Shown one piece after another: positions 18,355-60,027 of a DNA stretch of 64,000 nucleotides. Position 1 is the first letter of the stretch, and every line of letters starts with the position of its first letter. The position numbers were made by a program, and so were the translations under genes. Where the stretch lies: contig JAILNI010000030.1 of NCBI GenBank assembly GCA_024691765.1, positions 1 to 64,000 of the forward strand. The letters run 5' to 3'. Source of the DNA: Bacteroidales bacterium (GTDB taxonomy: Bacteria > Bacteroidota > Bacteroidia > Bacteroidales > UBA932). The notes below the pieces were generated by a model that was given only the letters and a program-made list of their open reading frames with translations, had not been told where the DNA came from and did not search any database.

Positions 18355-20756
18355 TTGAGTCCGTCCAGTATGGTCTGAAGGTCTTCCATGGTGGATACAA
18401 GAACCGTGCGAGGCTTGCTGCCCTCCTGAGGAGAAACGATTCCGGCCTTTTCCAGCTGGTCCATTACGCGCCCGGCCTTGGCATAACCCATGCCCAGCCT
18501 GCGCTGCAGGTCGGAGGTGCTGCCCCTCTGGGTGCTCACCACCAGCTGCGCCGCCTCCACGAAGCGGTCGTCCAGTTCGCCCACGTCGCCCACTCCGCCG
18601 CTTTCGCCCTTGTCGGACACGTCGGGCAGGTAGTACGGGGTGTTGTAGCTCTTCTTGTAGCCTTCCTGCTCCCCGATGAAGTCGGTTATAGAGTCGATTT
18701 CCTCTCCGCTGACGTAGCCGCACTGTATGCGTTCGGTGTCGAGCCCTGCGCTCCAGAGCATGTCGCCGCGGCCTATCAGCTTCTCCGCACCGGGGGCGTC
18801 GAGTATGGTCATGGAGTCCACCCTGGAAGCTACGCGGAATGCGATACGCATCGGGAAGTTGCTCTTGATGAGGCCAGATATCACGTCCACCGAAGGCCTC
18901 TGGGTTGCGAGAATCACATGTATGCCCGCGGCGCGGCCCTTCTGGGCGAGTCGTATGATGGAGTTGGTTATGCTCTTGGATGCCGCCCTTGCTTCGGGAC
19001 TGCCTCCTATGGTCATGGTGAGGTCGGCATATTCATCGACCACCGTTACCAGGTAGGGGAGGAACCTGTGGCCCTTTTCCGGGTTGAGCTTGCGGGCTTT
19101 GAACTTCTCGTTGTAGAGGGTGAGTTTGTTGACGCCTGCCGCGCTGAGGAGCTTGTAGCGTTCGTCCATTTCGGTGCAGAGGCTGCGGAGTATCTTCTCG
19201 GCGTCGGTGGGGCTCTTGACGATGGCCTTCGCCTTTTCTTCCTCTTCGTCGCCGGCGGTGGGAAGCACGGCCAGATAATGGTGCAGCAGGCTGTTGTACG
19301 CGCTGAATTCCACCATCTTCGGGTCGATGAAGACGAACTTCAGCTCCGACGGATGCTTGCTGTAGAGGAGCGAAGAGATGATGACGTTGAGGCCCACGCT
19401 CTTTCCCTGCTTGGTCGCGCCCGCGACCAGCAGATGCGGGGCGTCGGCCAGGTCGAATACCTTCACTTCCTGGGTGATGGTGTAGCCTATGGCGACAGGC
19501 AGTTCGTACTTGCTGTTGCGGAAACTGTCGCTGTTGAGCAGGTTCTTCAGCGGAACTATGCTGGGGGTGTCGTTAGCCACCTCGATGCCGACGGAGTCTG
19601 ACAGGGTGACCACGCGGACGCCACGGGCCTTGAGGCTAAGGGCTATGTCTTCCTGGAGTTTCTTGATTTCGGAAATCTTGACTCCGGGGGCGGGGTTGAC
19701 CTTGTAGAGGGTTACCGTGGGGCCGATGATGGCCTGCACGTCGGTTACTTCGATGCGGTAGGTCTGCAGGGCCGCGCGTATCTTGTTGTTGTTGCGGTTG
19801 AGCTCGTCGCTGCCCACCTCGCGCTTGCCGGAGGCATGGCTCTCCAGAAGCTCTATGCTGGGGAACTTGTACCAGGGCAGGCCCTCGGGCGGGTCCATGC
19901 GGTTGTCTATGGGTTTGAGTTCCCTGACCTCGGCGTCGAGGGTGTCGTCGGTGACGACCGTAATCTCAATCTCACCGTTTCCTGCCGGGGTTTCAGCGGG
20001 AGCGTCGGAAGATTCGGCCGCGGAGCCGGCATCGCCGTCTTCGGGTTCGCTTTCGTTTTCTGCGGGCTCGGGGAATACAGGTTCCGTGAAGGTCTTCTCC
20101 GGCTTCTTCTCTTCTGGTTCGGCCTTTTCAGCTACGGCCCTGGCGCTTTCGGGGGATTTCTCCCGGTTCAGGAGTTCGTATACCCAGTCAGTGAATCTGC
20201 GGGAAGAGAAGAACAGGTATGCCAGGAGCAGGATTACCGCCAGGATGGGGGTGACGACCGGTCCCATGAGTTCGGTCGACCAGCGGAATATCTGGGCGCC
20301 GAATTCGCCGCCGAGACCGCCTCCGAAGGCGTTTTCCATGCCTGCGAACCCGCCTGCGCAACCGAGGATTATGGATGAGACGAAGGCGCCGAAGACCGCC
20401 ACGAGGGTGGTCTTGAGCAGCGAATACTGCCAGCGGCCGGCGATGAGACGGGCGCTGACGGCGCCGAGTATCACCAGCAGCGCGAAACTGCCGAGTCCGA
20501 AGAGCCTGCATACCAGCAGGAGGCCCATGCGGTAGCCGAGCTTGCCCGCGGCGTTGCCCGCCTTCGCCCCGCCCATGAGGGCCGGGTCGCTTAGCAGCGA
20601 CATGTCTTCTTTCCAGTGGAAAAGATACGATACGGTGCTTATAAGCACGAAAACGGCGAGGGCCGCGACCAGCAGGCCGATTATCTTCACGGCCACCGAG
20701 CGCTCACGGTCGTCCCATTTCCGCCAGAAGGCCAGGTTGTCCCAGAATTTCCTCAT
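18351..20756 (-). CDS. ftsK: DNA translocase FtsK/SpoIIIE
   Basis: N-terminal TM segments; HLLVAGATKQGKSVGLNVIISSLL; C-terminal winged helix (LQRRLGMGYAKAGRVMDQLEKAGIV). Confidence 0.97.
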   Translation of the reverse strand: MRKFWDNLAFWRKWDDRERSVAVKIIGLLVAALAVFVLISTVSYLFHWKEDMSLLSDPALMGGAKAGNAAGKLGYRMGLLLVCRLFGLGSFALLVILGAVSARLIAGRWQYSLLKTTLVAVFGAFVSSIILGCAGGFAGMENAFGGGLGGEFGAQIFRWSTELMGPVVTPILAVILLLAYLFFSSRRFTDWVYELLNREKSPESARAVAEKAEPEEKKPEKTFTEPVFPEPAENESEPEDGDAGSAAESSDAPAETPAGNGEIEITVVTDDTLDAEVRELKPIDNRMDPPEGLPWYKFPSIELLESHASGKREVGSDELNRNNNKIRAALQTYRIEVTDVQAIIGPTVTLYKVNPAPGVKISEIKKLQEDIALSLKARGVRVVTLSDSVGIEVANDTPSIVPLKNLLNSDSFRNSKYELPVAIGYTITQEVKVFDLADAPHLLVAGATKQGKSVGLNVIISSLLYSKHPSELKFVFIDPKMVEFSAYNSLLHHYLAVLPTAGDEEEEKAKAIVKSPTDAEKILRSLCTEMDERYKLLSAAGVNKLTLYNEKFKARKLNPEKGHRFLPYLVTVVDEYADLTMTIGGSPEARAASKSITNSIIRLAQKGRAAGIHVILATQRPSVDVISGLIKSNFPMRIAFRVASRVDSMTILDAPGAEKLIGRGDMLWSAGLDTERIQCGYVSGEEIDSITDFIGEQEGYKKSYNTPYYLPDVSDKGESGGVGDVGELDDRFVEAAQLVVSTQRGSTSDLQRRLGMGYAKAGRVMDQLEKAGIVSPQEGSKPRTVLVSTMEDLQTILDGLK

Positions 20757-21403
20757 TTGCCCTTGTTCTTGCGGTATTTGCGGTTACGGTTCTTCTTGCC
20801 GCCGCCCTGCTGGCCCTGTCCGGGACGGGCGAAGACGGCATCCTGCGACACTTTGCCCAGTTCTATCCCTTCGGGAACGTGGATCCTGCCGCCGGAAAGC
20901 TTCTCGATATCGGAGAATATGGTGGCGTCCGCTACGGAATCCTTGTTCCAGATGAGGTACTGAGTGCGCATGTATATCGCCAGGTTGCGGATGAGGGCGG
21001 TCTTGGTCTCGCCCTCAGGCTGCTCGCATATCAGGTCTATGATGCGCTCTATGTTGCGCCCGTAGTGCATGGCCTTGATCGGGCTGCCCTTCATGGGGAG
21101 GGGAACAGGTTTGGTTTCCATCTCTTCCTTCACGGGCGCGGGCCACGGGGAGTCGATGTCGAGATTGTACCCGGCTATCATATAGAGGTGGTCCCAGAGC
21201 TTGCGCTCCCAGTTTTCCTGCTGGCGCACCTGGGGATTGAGGATTTCCATGGTCTTCACGACCGCCCTGGCCTGCTCGCTGCGCTTGGCGCGGTCGGGTA
21301 TGGTTTGGAGATACTCCGCCATCGCCAGGACGCCGCGGCCGTATTCCGGCATGGCAAGCGGCTCGCGTTCGGTATTGTATTGGAGATTTACAGTGTCTTT
21401 CAT
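20753..21403 (-). CDS. DUF4290 family protein
   Basis: MKDTVNLQYNTEREPLAMPEYGRGVLAMAEYLQTIPDRAKR. Confidence 0.85.
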   Translation of the reverse strand: MKDTVNLQYNTEREPLAMPEYGRGVLAMAEYLQTIPDRAKRSEQARAVVKTMEILNPQVRQQENWERKLWDHLYMIAGYNLDIDSPWPAPVKEEMETKPVPLPMKGSPIKAMHYGRNIERIIDLICEQPEGETKTALIRNLAIYMRTQYLIWNKDSVADATIFSDIEKLSGGRIHVPEGIELGKVSQDAVFARPGQGQQGGGKKNRNRKYRKNKGK

Positions 21404-21409
21404 ATCGCA

Positions 21410-21417
21410 CAAAGATA
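21410..21417 (-). promoter_or_regulatory. -7 box TATCTTTG, 6 nt before ATG 21403
   Basis: CAAAGATA on + strand. Confidence 0.65.
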
Positions 21418-21455: not shown

Positions 21456-22331
21456 ATGACAAAAAGCTACAGGGTAGCAGGACACGTTTTCTCCTTCGAC
21501 ATTCCGGAGGCGCATCCGCTGTGGTCCCGCACAGGTCAGTACGAGCCTTTCGAACTGCCCTCCGCGGAAGCCTCCGTCTTTACGGTAGAGCTGGTGGAAA
21601 GCCTTCCCGAAATCTCCATGGAAAGGATTTACGGGGGAGACGAGGAGCCTGGCCAGCCTGTAGTGCTGCTTTATCACGGCGCGGATGGCTGGGCCTTTGA
21701 GATGGCTCCCTGCACCGGAATGCCGGTCTGCGGAAGGGTCTTTGCCGACGAGGGTTTCACCCACGCCAGGCTGCAGGTCCTGCGTCCGTCCGAAGCCCTG
21801 TTCGCGCTAAACAACACCGCGATGCTGATGTTCGCCTTCCGCACTGCCGGGCTGGACACCCTTGAAATGCACGCATCCGTCATAGTCAACGGCGGAAAGG
21901 CATATCTCTGGCTCGCAAAGAGCGGTACGGGCAAAAGCACCCATTCCCGTCTCTGGCTGGAGAACATTCCCGGAAGCCGCCTGCTGAACGACGACAACCC
22001 CGTCGTCCGGGTAATGGAAGACGGGCACGTGGAGGTGTTCGGCACCCCGTGGAGCGGCAAGACTCCATGCTATAAAAACGAGCACTGCCCGGCCGGCGCT
22101 TTCTCCGAAATAGTACGGAGCGCCGACAACCGCATAAGCCGTAAGGGCAATCTCGAAGCCTACGTGCTCCTGTGGTCTTCCTGTTCCGGCCTCAAGTGCT
22201 ATCCCGGCATGGCCGACGCCCTGCACTCCACTTTCGAAAAGGTGGTGGCTGCCGTTCCCTGTTTCACCCTGGAATGCAGGCCCGACGCCGATGCGGCCCG
22301 GGTGTCTTCCGAAACCCTGCTTTCCCTGTGA
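21456..22331 (+). CDS. HPr-kinase-like P-loop protein (RiPP/PqqD-cluster associated type)
   Basis: MTKSYRVAGHVFSFDIP...YLWLAKSGTGKSTHSRLWLENIPGSRLLNDDNPVV...GTPWSGKTPCYKN. Confidence 0.8.
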   Translation: MTKSYRVAGHVFSFDIPEAHPLWSRTGQYEPFELPSAEASVFTVELVESLPEISMERIYGGDEEPGQPVVLLYHGADGWAFEMAPCTGMPVCGRVFADEGFTHARLQVLRPSEALFALNNTAMLMFAFRTAGLDTLEMHASVIVNGGKAYLWLAKSGTGKSTHSRLWLENIPGSRLLNDDNPVVRVMEDGHVEVFGTPWSGKTPCYKNEHCPAGAFSEIVRSADNRISRKGNLEAYVLLWSSCSGLKCYPGMADALHSTFEKVVAAVPCFTLECRPDADAARVSSETLLSL

Positions 22332-22792
22332 GCGCCACCCGCATAACCCTTCCGAACGAAGTGATGCTGGGTTCCGTGAAGGAACTGCTGGCAGAGGGGA
22401 ACTCGGTGGTAATCATGACCAAGGGACTGAGTATGCTGCCTTTCATCGAAGGCAAGCGCGACAGCGTGCTCCTCAGGCGCCTTTCCCCGGTGTGTGTCGG
22501 GGACATAGTCCTCGCGGAAATCGGTCCGGGGCATTACGTCCTGCACAGGGTGATTTCCGTTGAAGGGGAGAATGTGACGCTCAGGGGCGACGGCAACCTC
22601 CGCGGGGAGGAGCATTGCAGTCTTCAGGCCGTCGCGGGCACCGTGACAGCCATACAGAGGGAAGGGCGTGCCGACGTGGATCCACGGAGCGCAAGGCAGA
22701 TGAGGCGCTGGCGCCGCTGGGCCTCGTTTCCCTACGCTGTGCGACGCTACTATCTTGCAATTTACAGACGAATAAAAAGGATAACCATATGA
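22328..22792 (+). CDS. S24/S26 family (signal-peptidase-like) serine peptidase
   Basis: GTG start overlapping kinase stop (GTGA); MTKGLSMLPFIEGKRD, GDIVLAEI, HYVLHRVI, LRGDGN. Confidence 0.8.
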   Translation: MSATRITLPNEVMLGSVKELLAEGNSVVIMTKGLSMLPFIEGKRDSVLLRRLSPVCVGDIVLAEIGPGHYVLHRVISVEGENVTLRGDGNLRGEEHCSLQAVAGTVTAIQREGRADVDPRSARQMRRWRRWASFPYAVRRYYLAIYRRIKRITI

Positions 22793-23058
22793 GAATCAAG
22801 GAAGGATTCAAGCTCCGCACCATGCTGGGCGAGCACATAGTCACAGGGGAATACCCCATGCAGGTGAACTTCAACAAGATGGTCTCCCTCAACGAGACCG
22901 CTGCCTATCTCTGGGAGAAGGTCCAGGGCAAGGACTTCACCGAAGCCGACCTTGCGAAGCTTCTTCTCGACGAGTACGAAGTGGACGAGGCCACGGCCAA
23001 CAAAGACGCCGCCGCCCTTGCGGCAAAATGGAAGGAAATAGGCCTGATAGAGGGATGA
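22789..23058 (+). CDS. PqqD family protein (RiPP recognition element-like)
   Basis: 89 aa MRIKEGFKLRTMLGEHIVTGEYPMQVNFNKMVSLNETAAYLWEKVQGKDFTEADLAKLLLDEYEVDEATANKD; ATGA overlap with S26 gene. Confidence 0.88.
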   Translation: MRIKEGFKLRTMLGEHIVTGEYPMQVNFNKMVSLNETAAYLWEKVQGKDFTEADLAKLLLDEYEVDEATANKDAAALAAKWKEIGLIEG

Positions 23059-24683
23059 GACCGTTCAGGGACTGTTTGGCCGGGCTTCTTGCCGCACTTC
23101 GCCCGCATAAATGGAGGGTGCTTTTCAGCGCTTTCCTGGGAATCGTGCAGGTAGCACTTTCCCTGGGCTTCGTGTGGTGCAGCAAATACGTGGTCGACCT
23201 GGCGACCGGCGAGACCGAAGGCTCCCTGCTGAAGGGAGTCTGTATCTTCGGAGGCATACTGCTGATGCAGGTCCTGGTCCGCACGGGAGCCCGTTACTGG
23301 GAAGGCTACATGGTGGTGGAGGCCCAGAACATGGGCCGCGCCAGGGTTTTCTCGCGTGTGATGCGCGGGATATGGGAAGGAAAGGATCGTTTCCACAGCG
23401 GAGATACGGTGAACCGTCTCGAGGAGGATGTGCGCGTGGTGGTGGACTTCATCTGCGTGTCCCTTCCCGGAGTCGTGGTAACCCTCTGCCAGCTGGTCGC
23501 GGCCTGCGTCTTCCTCTTCGCCCTGTCGCCCCAGCTCGGCTGGATACTTGTCTTCATCATGCCCGTCGCGGTAGTCGGGAGCCGTCTTTTCTTCCGTAAA
23601 CTGCGTTCCCTTACCGGCGACATTCGCCGTGGCGACAGCCTTGTCCAGGCCCATATGCAGGAGAATATCCAGCACCGTATAGTGGTCCGTACAATGGGCA
23701 GCACCGAGGACACCCTCGACCAGTTGGACGAACTGCAGGACGATGTGAGAAAGGGTACGCTCAAGCGCCTCGGATATGCCGCGTTCTCGCGGACAATCAT
23801 GCAGCTCGGATTCATGATGGGGTACGGAGCCGCCTTCGTTTGGAGCGTCTACGGAATAAGCAAAGGGACGGTTACCTACGGTCTCATGACTGCCTTCCTG
23901 CAGCTTGTCGGCCAGGTGCAGCGCCCCGTAGCAGAGCTCGCGGGGCAGATTCCCGCCTTCATCCGGGCCCTCTCAAGCGAAGACAGGCTGATGGATCTTG
24001 CCGAACAGACCCAGGAGAGGGAGGAGGCCGACGTCTGGCTCGACGGTGCACCCGGAATCCGGGTGGAAGGTCTTTCCTACAGGTACCCCGGAGCCAGGAA
24101 GTACGTTTTCGAGAACTTCAGCTTCGATTTCCGTCCGGGCACCATGACCGCTATACTCGGCCCGACCGGGGGCGGAAAGAGCACCCTGATAAGGATAATG
24201 CTCAATCTCCTCAAGCCGACTTCCGGAAGCGTTACCCTCTATGATCCTCCGACCCCGTCGGGGCCCGGAACTCTCTGCAATTTCATGTATGTTCCACAGG
24301 GGAATTCACTCATGAGCGGAAGCATAAGGCAGAACCTGAAACTGGCCGCGCCCGGTGCAAGCGACGAAGAACTGCTTGAGGCCCTCCACGATGCTTCGGC
24401 CGATTTCGTGAGGGACCTCCCGCAGGGGCTGGACACCCTCTGTGCCGAAGTGGGGCAGGGACTCAGCGAAGGCCAGGCCCAGAGGATAGCCATAGCCCGC
24501 GCCCTGCTGCGTCCGGGAGGCATACTCGTGCTGGACGAGGCCACGAGCGCGCTCGACCCCGCCACGGAAAAGGAACTTCTCGGTAATCTCGCCCGCAAAT
24601 ACCGCGGCCGCAAGACCATACTCTGTATTACCCACAGGCCGGCAGCCACCGAATATGCCGACGAGACTCTCAAAATGGCTTGA
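23055..24683 (+). CDS. ABC exporter, fused permease-ATPase
   Basis: Six-TM permease; GPTGGGKSTLIRI; LSEGQAQRIAIARALLRPGGILVLDEATSALD; ATGA overlap with pqqD. Confidence 0.93.
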   Translation: MRPFRDCLAGLLAALRPHKWRVLFSAFLGIVQVALSLGFVWCSKYVVDLATGETEGSLLKGVCIFGGILLMQVLVRTGARYWEGYMVVEAQNMGRARVFSRVMRGIWEGKDRFHSGDTVNRLEEDVRVVVDFICVSLPGVVVTLCQLVAACVFLFALSPQLGWILVFIMPVAVVGSRLFFRKLRSLTGDIRRGDSLVQAHMQENIQHRIVVRTMGSTEDTLDQLDELQDDVRKGTLKRLGYAAFSRTIMQLGFMMGYGAAFVWSVYGISKGTVTYGLMTAFLQLVGQVQRPVAELAGQIPAFIRALSSEDRLMDLAEQTQEREEADVWLDGAPGIRVEGLSYRYPGARKYVFENFSFDFRPGTMTAILGPTGGGKSTLIRIMLNLLKPTSGSVTLYDPPTPSGPGTLCNFMYVPQGNSLMSGSIRQNLKLAAPGASDEELLEALHDASADFVRDLPQGLDTLCAEVGQGLSEGQAQRIAIARALLRPGGILVLDEATSALDPATEKELLGNLARKYRGRKTILCITHRPAATEYADETLKMA

Positions 24684-24689
24684 AGTTTG

Positions 24690-24697
24690 TATATTTG
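24690..24697 (+). promoter_or_regulatory. -7 box TATATTTG upstream of lipoprotein gene
   Basis: Exact TAnnTTTG just after ABC stop codon. Confidence 0.55.
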
Positions 24698-24718
24698 CTG
24701 ATGCGACAATTCGATGCG

Positions 24719-25732
24719 ATGAGAATCAGAAACTACATATTTGCGCTCCTTGCCGCCGGAGTCCTTGTGCTTCCTGGCTGCAAGAAGGACGATGACGACG
24801 ACACTCCGTCCATTTACGGCACTATAAAGTTCGACGAGCTTCCCGCGTACGTGCTGAAAGGAGATTCCTTCCACTTCACGGCAACGGGAGCATACCGCGG
24901 CTCAGACAAGACCGACACCCTGGTCGGCTACTATATGTACAATTCGATGACCGCCCTGCGCGATACCATCCGCAAGGAGAATCAGAGCGGCGTGGCTGAG
25001 GGCGATTTCGTCGTGAACAAGGATACCACGGGAACCTTCACTTTCACTATATACGCCTTTGCCAAGGGTTATTACGGAAACAGCGCGTCGTGCACTTTCA
25101 CCGTGGTGAATCCCGTTTTCAACGCCCCGGGGAGTTCCATTACCGGACATCCTTTCGAAATCGGAGTTACGAGTATACTAAACGATGCGCGTGACGGCCG
25201 GCTTTATTATGCCTCCTCAACCGCTTCCGGAGCATGGATGCTCAACAATCTCGCCTGGAACGGAGCGGGCGTTCCTTTCGCCGACGCGGACGCTATGAGC
25301 TACATATCCGGACGTTTCTATTCATGGGAAGAGGCAACGGAGGCCTGCCCGGTCGGTTGGAAACTGCCCTCCGACGCCGATTTCGTCGCGCTTGCTGGCG
25401 CAGGCTCGGCCGGGGAAACCATACCCGGCAAGGCCGGTATGCTCAAGGGCGACGTAAGTTTCAACGGTACGGCGATGTGGCCTTTCACCGATATTTCCGT
25501 AGTCATTACAAACGAAAGCATGTTCACCGCCATGCCGTGGGGTTATATGACCACGTCCGCGGGCATTCACAGTTTCAAATCCGTAAGGAATATGGCGGCT
25601 TTCTGGACCGCGGATTCCGTGGATGCGGACAACGCCCGCGTGAGGTACGTCCTGTCCGACTCCAACGACATCTTCGTCCAGGCTATGGACAAGAAGTCCT
25701 TCGGCGCTTCGGTGCGCTGCATCAAGGAATAA
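24719..25732 (+). CDS. lipoprotein with FISUMP-like C-terminal domain
   Basis: MRIRNYIFALLAAGVLVLPGCKKDDDDD lipobox; ...EEATEACPVGWKLPSDADFVAL...FGASVRCIKE. Confidence 0.75.
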   Translation: MRIRNYIFALLAAGVLVLPGCKKDDDDDTPSIYGTIKFDELPAYVLKGDSFHFTATGAYRGSDKTDTLVGYYMYNSMTALRDTIRKENQSGVAEGDFVVNKDTTGTFTFTIYAFAKGYYGNSASCTFTVVNPVFNAPGSSITGHPFEIGVTSILNDARDGRLYYASSTASGAWMLNNLAWNGAGVPFADADAMSYISGRFYSWEEATEACPVGWKLPSDADFVALAGAGSAGETIPGKAGMLKGDVSFNGTAMWPFTDISVVITNESMFTAMPWGYMTTSAGIHSFKSVRNMAAFWTADSVDADNARVRYVLSDSNDIFVQAMDKKSFGASVRCIKE

Positions 25733-54642: not shown

Positions 54643-55938
54643 ATGGACAGACGCAAATTCATAGAACTTTCTTCCCTGTGCGGAGTAGCGCTGCTCCTGG
54701 GATGCAAAAAAACCTCCATGGGAGGGAACACCACCGTTCCGGTCGTGACGAAAAAGACATGGAAAGGCTGGCAGAAAGGGCAGTTCCAGGTGCATTTCAT
54801 CTACACCGGAGTGGCGGAATCGCTGTTCCTCATCTTCCCCGACGGCACCACCATGCTGCTGGACTGCGGCGACCACAACGTGAAGTCTTCCGCCGGAGCG
54901 CAGGCCGTGCCAATACTCCCAGGTGACTATCTCCATGCAGGGGAGTGGATAGCCAGATACGTGAAGAAAGTGAACCCTAACGGAAACGCGGTGGATTACA
55001 TGATGCTTTCGCACTACCACTGCGACCACGCCGGAAGCGAGGTTTGGTATGCCGGCACTGAGACGCATTCCGGGGAACCCTACGTGCTCAGCGGCTTCTC
55101 GCAGGCGGCGCAGCAGCTCGATTTCTCGCGTGCCGTCGACCGGCTCTGGCCCGGATACGACACGCCGCTTCCCATGGTGGACGACGCCAACAAGGTCTTC
55201 TCCCACATGAAGAAATTCTACGATTACATGTCTTCCGAAAGGGGACTGCAGATAGAGAGTTTCAGACTTGGAGCCACAGACCAGATAGTGCCCCTGCATG
55301 GTTCAGTTGATGGTTTCCGGGTGCGGAACGTCTGCGGCAACGGGTATATTTCCCTTCCCGACGGCAGCGTGCAGGACCTCTACGCCGAGTTCAAGGCCAA
55401 TCCTCCGGAATACTTCAACGACAACGGAATGAGTCTCGGGCTGGAGTTCAGTTACGGCCCTTTCCGTTTCTTCACCGCAGGCGATTTCTGTGCCAGCCCT
55501 ACACTCCCTACCGGAGGAAAGCGCAACATAGAAGAGAGCCTTGCCGCCGCCGTGCTGCCATGCGACGTTTCCAAGGTGAACCACCACGGATACCAGTCAA
55601 TGCCTGCAAAACTGGTGTCGGCCCTCCGTTCCCGGGTATGGGTGAGCTGCGTATGGCGGCAGGACCACGACCAGGGCGAAGTGCTCTCCCGCCTCTCCAG
55701 CCGTTCGCTCTATTCAGGCGACCGGCTCATCTGCCCCGGCATATTCACTCCGGAAAGGAGAACCGCCGATGCCGGCAGCAGTTATCTCGACGACATCGCT
55801 CCGGCCTCCTCCACCGGCGGACACATAGTACTCAACGTGGAAGAAGGCGGCGGGAAATACTCCATTACGTACCTGGACGCAAGGGACGAGTCCCTGAGCG
55901 TGCTGAGCACCGCCGAATTTGAAACCTTCGCCAAATGA
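54643..55938 (+). CDS. MBL-fold metallohydrolase lipoprotein with twin-arginine signal
   Basis: MDRRKFIELSSLCGVALLLGCKK; MMLSHYHCDHAGSEVWY (HxHxDH). Confidence 0.85.
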   Translation: MDRRKFIELSSLCGVALLLGCKKTSMGGNTTVPVVTKKTWKGWQKGQFQVHFIYTGVAESLFLIFPDGTTMLLDCGDHNVKSSAGAQAVPILPGDYLHAGEWIARYVKKVNPNGNAVDYMMLSHYHCDHAGSEVWYAGTETHSGEPYVLSGFSQAAQQLDFSRAVDRLWPGYDTPLPMVDDANKVFSHMKKFYDYMSSERGLQIESFRLGATDQIVPLHGSVDGFRVRNVCGNGYISLPDGSVQDLYAEFKANPPEYFNDNGMSLGLEFSYGPFRFFTAGDFCASPTLPTGGKRNIEESLAAAVLPCDVSKVNHHGYQSMPAKLVSALRSRVWVSCVWRQDHDQGEVLSRLSSRSLYSGDRLICPGIFTPERRTADAGSSYLDDIAPASSTGGHIVLNVEEGGGKYSITYLDARDESLSVLSTAEFETFAK

Positions 55939-57617
55939 GTTTCGCCCTTCAGAGCCTGGATTACGCTGCCGTCCTGGTATATGTCCTGCTGATGGCCGTC
56001 ATCGGCGTGATTTTTGGCGCGCTGGTGAAGGACTCCGGCTCCTATTTCAAGGGCAACGGCACGGTGCCCTGGGTGATGGCCGCGGTGACCAACTTCATGG
56101 GGCTCTTCTCCACCTTCGTTTTCGTGGCCTACGCCGGCATCGCCTACGAATACGGACTTGTGTCAGTGACCGTCTTCTGGTGCACGGTGCCGGCCTGCCT
56201 CGTGGGCGCGCTTCTGTTTGCCGGCCGCTGGCGCCGTACGGGAAAGACCACGCCCGTGGAATACCTGGAAGATCGGTACGGTCTCCCGGTGAGGCAGATC
56301 ATGAGCTGGGCGGGACTGGCCATGAGGTTCCTGGACAACATGGTGAGGCTCTATGCGATAGGGGTGTTCATAAGCGCCGTCACCCCGCTGTCCCTGGAGC
56401 TTTCCATAGTGATTGCCGGGCTCGTGATAACGCTTTTCAACCTCTTCGGAGGGATGTGGTCGGTGACGGTGATGAGCACCGTGCAGTTCGTGATACTCAT
56501 ACTGGTGACGCTCGTGCTGCTGCCAGTCTCGCTGCAGGCGGCGGGCGGTTTCTCCGGCATAGCGGAGAACTTCCCCGGGCATCTGGACTGGTTCAACGGG
56601 CCCAAGGGCGCACCGCTGTGGCTGTCGGTCTATTGCATCATGACGGTCATAAAGTACAACGAGAACTGGACCTTCATCCAGAAGTTCTTCTGCGTGAGGG
56701 ACGAGCGTGCGGCACGCCGCAGCGGACTCCTCACGGCGGCGCTCTTCCTGGTATTCACCCCGGTGTTCCTGCTTCCTCCGGTGGCGGGCGCCGTGGTTGT
56801 CCCGGGGCTCGAGAACCCGGAGATGTCCTATGTGGCGCTGGCCTCGCGCCTTCTGCCGGCAGGCATAATGGGAATACTGTTCGCATCCATGTTCGCGGCC
56901 ACCATGTCCTCGCTCAACGCCGAGTACAACGTGATGTCCGCCGTAATCACCCACGATATTTACAAGCGGCTCTTCGAGCCCGGAGCGACCGACGCGCGGC
57001 TGCTCTCGGTGGCGCGGTGGAGCACCCTGCTCACAGGCCTCGTGATGATAGGCGGGGCCATACTCATCCGGGGCCTTGGCGGAGCGTTCGAGGCCAACAA
57101 GCTGTTCACGGGCATAATGGCCATACCGCTCGGCATCCCGCTTATACTGGGCATAGTGTCCAGACGCCCCGGAGGCCCGGCCGCCATGATAACCATAGTG
57201 GCGGGAGTCGTTGCCGGAGTCGTGCTCAACCTCGTCCCTTCCCTCAGCTGGGAAGTCGCCACTCTCATCGAAATCATCCTCTGTCTGGTCCTCTACTATC
57301 TCCCCTGGCCGCAGGGGAGGGACGCCGCCCGGGAGAAAGAACTGGACTCGCTCTTTGAAAAATTGGAGAACCCCATAGCGGAAAAAGATAAAAACGAAAT
57401 CCCGTCCGGATACGGCCGGGCCATTGGAATACTGCTGATTGCTTCCCTGCTGGTGGCGGGACTGCTGTTCTGCGGCATGAGCATCCCCAGTCTGGGGCAG
57501 CGCAGCGGCCTGTGCAGCTTCATTGCGGGCGCAATCTGCCTTGCGGCGGCGCTCCCGCCATTATTCATGCGGAACAAATCAAAAAACAATAAAAACAATG
57601 ATGAAAAATTACTTTAA
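55935..57617 (+). CDS. sodium:solute symporter (SSS) family transporter
   Basis: LDYAAVLVYVLLMAVIGVIFGALVKDSGSYFKGNGTVPWVMAAVTNFMGLFS; multi-TM. Confidence 0.9.
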   Translation: MSFALQSLDYAAVLVYVLLMAVIGVIFGALVKDSGSYFKGNGTVPWVMAAVTNFMGLFSTFVFVAYAGIAYEYGLVSVTVFWCTVPACLVGALLFAGRWRRTGKTTPVEYLEDRYGLPVRQIMSWAGLAMRFLDNMVRLYAIGVFISAVTPLSLELSIVIAGLVITLFNLFGGMWSVTVMSTVQFVILILVTLVLLPVSLQAAGGFSGIAENFPGHLDWFNGPKGAPLWLSVYCIMTVIKYNENWTFIQKFFCVRDERAARRSGLLTAALFLVFTPVFLLPPVAGAVVVPGLENPEMSYVALASRLLPAGIMGILFASMFAATMSSLNAEYNVMSAVITHDIYKRLFEPGATDARLLSVARWSTLLTGLVMIGGAILIRGLGGAFEANKLFTGIMAIPLGIPLILGIVSRRPGGPAAMITIVAGVVAGVVLNLVPSLSWEVATLIEIILCLVLYYLPWPQGRDAAREKELDSLFEKLENPIAEKDKNEIPSGYGRAIGILLIASLLVAGLLFCGMSIPSLGQRSGLCSFIAGAICLAAALPPLFMRNKSKNNKNNDEKLL

Positions 57618-57729
57618 GCCCGAAAGCGAACTGCTCGAAATCGGGCCCGGCACAGTCCTTTGCACCTCCGCACCAGAGGTGGCGGTGACTTCTGAATCGT
57701 TTGACGAACTGGACAATCTTTCAATGTAA
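57598..57729 (+). CDS. 43-aa peptide of unknown function (YxxP...LCTS)
   Basis: MMKNYFKPESELLEIGPGTVLCTSAPEVAVTSESFDELDNLSM; overlaps SSS stop by 20 nt, 6 nt before next ATG. Confidence 0.75.
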   Translation: MMKNYFKPESELLEIGPGTVLCTSAPEVAVTSESFDELDNLSM

Positions 57730-57735
57730 CGTAAT

Positions 57736-60027
57736 ATGAGAACAAGGTTATTTATGGCCATCGCACTCATGGCCGCACTTTCCATCTCCTGCGGAAAGGA
57801 ACAAAAAACGGATAACGGCAGGGACAACCCGAAGCAGACCCCCGGCGGCGAGGAGAAAACCGGTCTGGTCTCCATGACCTTCTCCGCGAGTTTTGATGAT
57901 TCACCGGCAACCGCCGCGGCGCTTTCCGGCAACGACGTGAACTGGGAGTACTCCGACCACATCGCCGTATTCGACGGCGTGGCAAGGCGCGATTTCACCG
58001 TTAAGGAAGGCAGCATCAGCGGCGGCACCGCCACGTTCGAGGGCGAAGTGGACGAGGGTGCCACCTCCTTCATCGCCGTCTATCCCTATTCGGCTTCCAC
58101 GGCCACCCAGCCTTCGGCCGGCAGCATAGAAATCAACTATCCTGCAAGCCAGACGCTTACCACGTCGGCAATGGCGCCGGATGCGATGATATGCGTGGCC
58201 CAGGCCGACAAGGGCTCCGGCCTCTCGTTCAGGAACGTGGCGGCCCGCCTCAAAATCCATATCCCGGGGAGCGACGTGACCGCGGTGACTCTCAGCGGCA
58301 ACAAAACCGAATATTTCGCCGGCTCCGCCTCCGTGAGCACGGCGGGGGAGATTACCAGCACGGGAGATGCCTCTTCGATTACGCTCTATCCTTCGGGAAG
58401 CACCTTCAGCGAGGGAGACTACTATTTCGGGCTCCTTCCCGTGGAATTCACCGAAGGCTTCACCCTGGTCTATGAAAAATCCGGGGGCAAAGCTTTCGTG
58501 GACACCGACAAGGACGTGGAGTTCCTCCGCAACGGTGGAAAGGACGTAACAGCCTCCACGGCCTCTCTTACCTGGGTAGGCCTGCCCATCATGGATGAGG
58601 ATGACCTTAAGGCCTTCGCCGATTACAGCCGTTTCTTCAGCTCTTCCGAGACCGTGCGGATAGGTGCCGACATCGCCCTTACCTCAGCCTGGACTCCCTT
58701 CCCGCTCTGGTGCACCCTGGACGGGCAGAACCACAAGATTACCGGCCTTTCGGTGAGCGCTGAAGAAAATGCCGGCTTCGTGTCCATACTCTATGCCGAT
58801 GCCGCTCTTGAGAACCTGGAGGTTTCCGGCAGCATCTCCCTCACCGGAACCGGCAGTCTTGCTTACGCCGCCCTGGTTGCCGACACCAGGGGCGCCATCA
58901 CCTCAGTGACAAACAGGGTATCAGTGACGCATGAATCTACGGCAACCTGCCCCGTGTATCTGGGCGGCATAGCCGGCCTTCTCTCGAACGGAGGCAGCAT
59001 AAGTTCGTCTTACAACTACGGCGCCGTCGCCCTCAATGGTACGAGCAGTGATGTGTCCTTCATAGGAGGAGTCGTGGGATACATGCAGGCAGGCTGCGGG
59101 AACGTGATCAACACCGATAATCACGGCACCGTCTCCTGCGCCAACACGTATGGCCAGGGTATCGGCGGCATCGCCGGAATGATAAGGGGAGCTAAAATTG
59201 ACGGCTGCACCAATGAAAGCACCGGGGTGATTACAGTATCGAAATGCAAAACCGGCGGCTGGGGCTGCTTTGTCGCAGGCATAGCTGCGTTCATGCAGAA
59301 CAACACCGCTTCAGAGTCGTCGATAGAAAACTGCACCAACAAGGCGGACATCTCCACCGAGGCCCAATGCTGGGGAGTGGCCGGAATAGCCGGAATTACC
59401 CATTACTCAGGCACCGCTGCCTACAAAATCAACGGCTGTACCAACAACGGCGACATAACCTGGACAAAGGGAGGCACCGCCAACGTCTTCTGCGGCGGCA
59501 TACTTGCAATTGCAGAAGGCAACAGCCTCACGGTTTCCGGAAATACCAATAGCGGAGCCGTTGAAATAACAGGTAACCGCACGGCCGACAATGTCATGGA
59601 AGTAGGAGGTATCATCGGAACCGTTTTCAGAAACAATAAGCGTCCCCAAAACGGGGAGGCCAGGACTGTTGAAATCTCTTCCAATACCAACGAAGGCTCG
59701 GTCACTTTCAAGACTACGGGCACAGCAACAGGTGTTGCAGGCGGCATAATAGGCGGCTTCAGCGTAAATGACGGTACCGAGAGTACAGGAACCGCGGTTA
59801 CCGTGAGCGGTAACACCAGCAAGGGAGCCATAGTGAGCACGGGTGCGGTAGGAGGTATTTTTGCTACATGCTACAGCACATGCAAATACCTTACGGTAAC
59901 TGTTACCGGAAGCAAGCTCGGCTGCACGCTCAACGGCGCTGACGCCACTGCTGCAAACGCATCGGTGTACAGCAGCAATGATTCTGCCACCACTACTGTT
60001 TCCGTAAGCGGTACTACTGTTATCTGA
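57736..60027 (+). CDS. fimbrillin-like lipoprotein with C-terminal beta-helix/GLUG-like repeats
   Basis: Lipobox ALSISCGKE; WEYSDHIAVFDGVARRDFTV...YFGLLPVEFTEGFTLVY; repeated GGIAG/GGIIG and VSGNTNxGAV units. Confidence 0.8.
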   Translation: MRTRLFMAIALMAALSISCGKEQKTDNGRDNPKQTPGGEEKTGLVSMTFSASFDDSPATAAALSGNDVNWEYSDHIAVFDGVARRDFTVKEGSISGGTATFEGEVDEGATSFIAVYPYSASTATQPSAGSIEINYPASQTLTTSAMAPDAMICVAQADKGSGLSFRNVAARLKIHIPGSDVTAVTLSGNKTEYFAGSASVSTAGEITSTGDASSITLYPSGSTFSEGDYYFGLLPVEFTEGFTLVYEKSGGKAFVDTDKDVEFLRNGGKDVTASTASLTWVGLPIMDEDDLKAFADYSRFFSSSETVRIGADIALTSAWTPFPLWCTLDGQNHKITGLSVSAEENAGFVSILYADAALENLEVSGSISLTGTGSLAYAALVADTRGAITSVTNRVSVTHESTATCPVYLGGIAGLLSNGGSISSSYNYGAVALNGTSSDVSFIGGVVGYMQAGCGNVINTDNHGTVSCANTYGQGIGGIAGMIRGAKIDGCTNESTGVITVSKCKTGGWGCFVAGIAAFMQNNTASESSIENCTNKADISTEAQCWGVAGIAGITHYSGTAAYKINGCTNNGDITWTKGGTANVFCGGILAIAEGNSLTVSGNTNSGAVEITGNRTADNVMEVGGIIGTVFRNNKRPQNGEARTVEISSNTNEGSVTFKTTGTATGVAGGIIGGFSVNDGTESTGTAVTVSGNTSKGAIVSTGAVGGIFATCYSTCKYLTVTVTGSKLGCTLNGADATAANASVYSSNDSATTTVSVSGTTVI

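Follow-up and report, generated by a model that had tools for sequence, protein, structure and literature searches.

The window, a stretch of 64,000 nucleotides from a gut-type Bacteroidales bacterium, carries a four-gene cassette that very likely modifies and exports RiPPs of the LPP (linear polyphosphorylated peptide) type in a Bacteroidota branch of this class, with multi-copy precursors encoded in trans; the chemistry and the role are inferred. Conservation of the gene set, its catalytic and binding residues, the folds of the kinase and the recognition element, a YxxP/Ser peptide family, co-occurrence of this family with the kinase, partial physical linkage and lipoprotein pairing are shown. 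LPP clusters, published in May 2026, comprise a SpI peptidase, an RRE, an HprK-like kinase, an NTP transferase and an MsbA-like exporter, and LPPs were described there as restricted to Bacillota and of unknown function (Popov et al. 2026, PMC13381572). On the present reading the class extends to Bacteroidota, a dominant gut phylum. Among the open-access papers searched, PMC13381572 is the sole one on LPPs, and none describes them in Bacteroidota; subscription papers were outside the search. Such systems would escape cluster-based mining, since none of their precursors has to be encoded close to the enzymes.

The cassette genes K, S, P and A (21456-24683, Table 1) overlap by 4 nt at all three junctions (GTGA, ATGA and ATGA), with ORFs and junctions verified, and lie between DUF4290/ftsK on one side and comEC (PF03772) on the other. 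All three overlaps, and the DUF4290 and comEC flanks as well, are found again in the closest relative (L031), whose kinase is 76% identical. Dozens of genomes carry the block, so the arrangement is not due to chance. The cassette itself leaves no room for a precursor ORF. A preliminary description made from sequence alone had reported these overlaps, flanks and gene identities, had found no precursor between the genes and had placed the substrate in trans as one option. All of this held, and the short ORF it had named as a candidate proved to be a member of a trans-encoded YxxP precursor family that co-occurs with the kinase.

Table 1. Coordinates of the cassette, its neighbours, the precursor locus and their putative functional sites in the window.
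Feature	Coordinates	Strand	Basis
DUF4290 gene, flank	20753-21412		PF14123
K, HprK/PEPCK-fold peptide kinase (LppK-like), 291 aa	21456-22331	+	Invariant residues, AlphaFold2, Foldseek, weak profiles
K, P-loop KSGTGKST	21918-21941
S, SipW/Sec11 (ER-type) signal-peptidase-like leader peptidase (LppS-like), GTG start	22328-22792	+	Triad, SEC11A/C profile
S, triad S35	22430-22432
S, triad H73	22544-22546
S, triad D88	22589-22591
P, discrete PqqD-fold RiPP recognition element (RRE; LppB-like), 89 aa	22789-23058	+	PF05402, model, TfuB1 profile
P, putative YxxP-binding N35	22891-22893
P, putative YxxP-binding Y63
P, putative YxxP-binding D73	23005-23007
A, MsbA-like ABC exporter (permease + ATPase; LppD-like)	23055-24683	+	PF00664, PF00005
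F, FISUMP-domain lipoprotein, co-directional neighbour	24719-25732	+	PF09603 3e-18
Transporter gene upstream of precursor	55935-57617
LPP-type precursor MMKNYFKPESELLEIGPGTVLCTSAPEVAVTSESFDELDNLSM, 43 aa	57598-57729	+	Peptide-family profile matches E=7e-12 and 1.1e-7
Precursor, YFKP leader motif	57610-57621
Precursor, candidate acceptor Ser24	57667-57669
Overlap of transporter gene 3' end and precursor, 20 nt	57598-57617
Partner lipoprotein of precursor, 763 aa, lipobox SISC	57736-60027	+	6 nt gap from precursor

Searches of Pfam, NCBIfam and the PDB with single proteins gave only weak results for the kinase and the peptidase, and profiles and fold comparison were needed for both. The kinase has no Pfam match over the cut-off, and its NCBIfam matches are weak (TIGR04352 at 19.7 bits; ScmC at 17.2 bits vs a cut-off of 125). 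Its AlphaFold2 model (pLDDT 95.6) shows a PEPCK/HprK fold with Foldseek matches to PEPCK and HprK, and the P-loop, the NDD motif (N178-D180) and other motifs are invariant in an alignment of 31 homologues. As a single sequence, the S24/S26-type peptidase stays below the Pfam cut-off (17.7 bits vs 23.3); its profile matches SEC11A/C at 4e-5, its triad is invariant in 30 of 30 homologues, and it has no evident TM segment. Protein P belongs to the PqqD family (PF05402, 2.2e-16). The best structural matches of its model are the lasso RREs TbiB1 and TfuB1 that were solved with leader peptides (TM 0.73-0.75), and its profile matches TfuB1 at 1.4e-7. Among its putative YxxP-binding residues, N35 and D73 are invariant and Y63 is conserved in 34/36, and the same residues occur in the TfuB1 alignment. 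LppB binds YxxP through contacts that include N33, Y60 and D70 (PMC13381572); the mapping to these was made by motif and spacing, not by superposition or direct alignment with LppB, and binding by the window RRE is inferred. The exporter contains ABC_membrane (PF00664, 2e-28) and ABC_tran (PF00005, 1e-22) domains and no C39 peptidase domain. It matches the MsbA profile at 1.9e-64, yet remains under the equivalog cut-off, and the CydC/CydD profiles are also below their cut-offs.

A related-locus search with the kinase as query gave one locus. Conservation was assessed in 150 genomes of the window's family, mostly draft MAGs, with a home-made gene caller, and the set was found as a unit in approximately 40% of them. 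The kinase is present in 59 and the RRE in 60 of these genomes, with 58 carrying both, 1 the kinase only, 2 the RRE only and 89 neither (p=5e-38); the two are therefore one unit. In 41 loci retrieved together with broad flanking regions, K, S, P and A stay together in shifting order within many unrelated neighbourhoods, and the flanks are not conserved. The preliminary description had set neighbourhood conservation as a test beforehand, along with a PqqD model lacking a peptide groove and kinase homologues of unrelated role as grounds for refutation. Conservation as a unit was found, the PqqD model matches lasso RREs with bound leaders, and peptide phosphorylation is the activity described for relatives of the kinase (LppK, paeninodin-type kinases).

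An NTP_transf_5 (PF14907) nucleotidyltransferase gene of approximately 374 aa is found close to the kinase in 15 of 41 relatives. Beside the window cassette there is none, and no match in the window's genome exceeds the cut-off; this genome is 92.6% complete with 6.7% contamination, so that the missing gene could be a gap. Since the NTP transferase is a tailoring gene, its loss lowers the LPP membership of the window copy, not that of the family of loci. Other Bacteroidota carriers include other Bacteroidia (L087-L091), Prevotella sp. oral taxon 299, with K-S-P plus a trans peptide, and Phocaeicola massiliensis, with peptide-lipoprotein-P-N-A-K-S in one row. The system is testable in the latter because the whole set stands together there. 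At several loci (L037, L050, L062, L063, L070, L087, L089 and L090) the cassette or kinase sits beside polysaccharide-export genes (Wza/Wzc-like, glycosyltransferases), as reported for LPP in Bacilli; such neighbours are absent around the window cassette.

The search for precursors started from a 52 aa ORF beside the RRE and kinase in a second cassette copy of another genome (G151), and iteration from it gave a peptide family in 14 loci, including the window ORF. Members are 35-65 aa long, with invariant Tyr and Pro in YxxP, to which both LPP and lasso RREs bind, a leader consensus of Y-x-x-P...E-x-G-[IF]-[AC]-x-[SA]-S, and acidic, variable C-terminal parts. A Ser is found 19 or 20 residues after the YxxP Tyr in 43 of the 43 peptide genes examined. 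The window peptide carries the leader motif, the candidate acceptor Ser and an acidic C-terminal part. Pfam and NCBIfam hold no family for YxxP peptides, and one 13-bit match to a cyanobacterial lasso precursor model covers the N-terminal 13 residues of a single peptide (L053). Six peptides are dispersed over the window's genome (contigs C22, which is that of the window, C6, C48, C19, C18 and C11), each paired with a lipoprotein; although the C11 match is only a weak one (E=0.05), that peptide has the YxxP, the Ser and a partner lipoprotein. The window precursor lies 33 kb from the cassette, whereas a minority of relatives, P. massiliensis among them, encode the precursor in cis. The window precursor overlaps by 20 nt with the end of the transporter gene that precedes it and may therefore be translationally coupled to this gene.

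Peptides and kinase co-occur. With the first profile, 49 of the 150 family genomes have both, 10 the kinase only, 6 the peptide only and 85 neither (p=1e-22). Because the peptide seeds came from cassette loci, circularity was checked by leaving out the 11 seed genomes, and the association persisted (p=1.3e-18). A wider, better profile gave 49, 10, 5 and 86 genomes in the same categories (p=1e-23), with 189 peptides in the 59 kinase genomes vs 5 in the 91 others, each of the five kinase-negative genomes having a single match. The kinase-positive and peptide-positive genera are identical (12 of 26). In a phylum sample of 396 genomes, peptides were found in 4 of 5 strong-kinase genomes vs 0 of 391 others, and one genome of this sample that was not a seed source (G509) has five. 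Physical linkage is also seen outside the seed genomes, with 8 peptide matches within 10 kb of a kinase vs 1.05 expected (approximately 8-fold over chance). The p-values for co-occurrence ignore phylogeny except via the genus and phylum comparisons and are not fully corrected. One genome that is 99% complete, with no detectable kinase or RRE, has a convincing YxxP peptide-lipoprotein pair (G052:C17:11828, L131), which is possibly an orphan or is served by another system.

A lipoprotein gene directly follows the peptide gene in 36 of 43 cases by strict pattern and in 40 of 43 by eye, against a background of 7% of adjacent genes in the same loci; lipoproteins were recognised by sequence pattern. 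The two genes often overlap or are 0-70 nt apart. Ten partner lipoproteins were scanned and share no single Pfam domain; Mfa_like_1 (PF13149, fimbrillin) is above cut-off in 2 of the 10 and just below in L091, and otherwise nothing was found. This gene coupling suggests an encounter of the two products in the periplasm or at the surface, where any role of the lipoprotein is inferred, and the constant pairing of precursor and surface lipoprotein points to a role for LPPs. A bolder reading, tentative and somewhat less likely than not, is that one trans-acting kinase/protease/exporter cassette serves up to about 11 dispersed precursor-lipoprotein pairs per genome, with the phosphorylated peptides serving fimbrillin-like surface lipoproteins as ligands, as plugs or as partners in maturation; the system would then modify surface display and would not be an antibiotic cluster.

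In the proposed mechanism, the RRE would hold small precursors, the window peptide among them, by their YxxP leader, the kinase would phosphorylate the conserved Ser that follows directly on this leader, the SipW-like peptidase would cut the leader off precursor presented by the RRE, and the ABC protein would export the product to the periplasm. The exported peptide would probably act with the lipoprotein encoded immediately downstream of its precursor. In Bacillota, LppK polyphosphorylates one core Ser, and LppS (triad S29/H68/D93) removes the leader only with LppB (PMC13381572). As the RRE residues have LppB-like spacing and the peptidase triad is like that of LppS, binding, phosphorylation, cleavage and export are inferred by homology; there is no biochemistry in the Bacteroidota lineage. 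The earlier proposal of a peptide recognised by PqqD, phosphorylated, exported and clipped by the S26 peptidase is supported by this comparative evidence, with the activity itself inferred; its choice of lasso peptides as the nearest system is changed to LPP.

The window type has in common with the lpp cluster of Paenibacillus alginolyticus a SipW-like SpI peptidase with an S/H/D triad, a discrete YxxP RRE, an HprK-like kinase and an MsbA-like exporter, and its YxxP precursors, the 43 aa window peptide and five more in the genome, fit the 35-200 aa size of LPP precursors. Further points of likeness are that an NTP transferase is often present, that the core has no macrolactam synthetase and that the genes are often near capsule or exopolysaccharide genes. 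Unlike the LPP clusters, the Bacteroidota set mostly has trans precursors, several per genome and lipoprotein-paired, and often lacks the NTP transferase. The leader in Bacillota reads YxxPxVLxHQxIxFETxxS, whereas the Bacteroidota peptides have no FET and carry the Ser at +19/+20 rather than +18. An in-cluster precursor with the Bacillota consensus is absent in the window, as is an NTP transferase above cut-off. The LPP-type reading must accommodate this missing NTP transferase, the different leader consensus, the 33 kb between precursor and cassette in the window, the 10 kinase-positive genomes without a peptide match, the five kinase-negative genomes with one each, the incomplete phylogenetic correction of the co-occurrence and the lack of biochemistry.

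The most durable rival, although unlikely, is that the YxxP peptides are not substrates but small (e.g. translational or regulatory) ORFs before surface lipoproteins, with the co-occurrence being lineage marking. In its favor, the peptides lie directly upstream of lipoprotein genes at the short distances given above, and five genomes carry a peptide without a kinase. Against it, conservation is at the amino-acid level and matches the motif bound by this RRE class, no phylum-sample genome beyond the strong-kinase ones has a peptide, the genus sets are identical, and cis linkage to the cassette exceeds chance outside the seed genomes.

A relic or variant lasso-peptide cluster that lost its macrolactam synthetase and B2 protease is very unlikely. 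Paeninodin-type lasso clusters (PadeK, PsmN) do share the HprK-like kinase, NTP transferase, B1/PqqD RRE and ABC exporter (PMC7533575, PMC13381572), and the RRE resembles TfuB1/TbiB1. However, the window set has a dedicated SipW-like peptidase, conserved with an intact triad, and a YxxP rather than a WxxP leader, and there is no gene decay. The B2 transglutaminase-like protease (Transglut_core3, PF13471), whose absence the preliminary description had claimed, has no match at E<=1 in the window's genome. No asparagine-synthetase-like lasso cyclase was identified among the cassette neighbours at the family loci examined; the search was not systematic, and it was not extended to the whole genome because housekeeping AsnB would match.

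A third rival, in which the target of the cassette is the neighbouring FISUMP lipoprotein, offered by the preliminary description as the alternative substrate, or another protein instead of small peptides, is very unlikely, and the candidate was rejected. The FISUMP gene follows the cassette at a distance of 35 nt in the window and of 25 nt in L031, but in these two closest relatives alone does it adjoin the cassette; it has no YxxP leader, and the RRE family binds short leader peptides (PMC13381572). The lipoprotein is likely not part of the conserved system. Its start is probably ATG 24719, not TTG 24680, as inferred from the lipobox and L031. In one other relative (L055), three genes with a FISUMP domain immediately precede the kinase, and no YxxP peptide was detected there.

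Kinase and PqqD-like protein are also shared with SynChlorMet systems (TIGR04249 ScmC and relatives), which differ in that they include radical SAM enzymes and have the kinase either beside these or fused with them; no radical SAM gene is among the named genes flanking the window cassette. Loci of a different phylum branch (family f19, L095-L099) resemble SynChlorMet, with kinase-radical SAM fusions, PqqD, S24/S26, NTP_transf_5-like and ABC genes. A further locus (L100) brings together asparagine-synthetase-like genes, two PqqD-like genes, and NTP_transf_5-like, ABC and HprK-like genes, and is probably a lasso-type cluster with a kinase. In Bacillota, plasmid pNP243 of Butyrivibrio fibrisolvens (NZ_CP146964.1, L159) carries an ABC gene, a kinase, a 57 aa YVKP peptide, PqqD and an S24/S26 peptidase, and its K, P and S are homologous to those of the window (4e-18, 7e-12 and 3e-10). 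It differs in its cis precursor with a Cys-rich C-terminal part and in having no lipoprotein partner, and its neighbours are nucleotidyltransferases and PssD/PssE.
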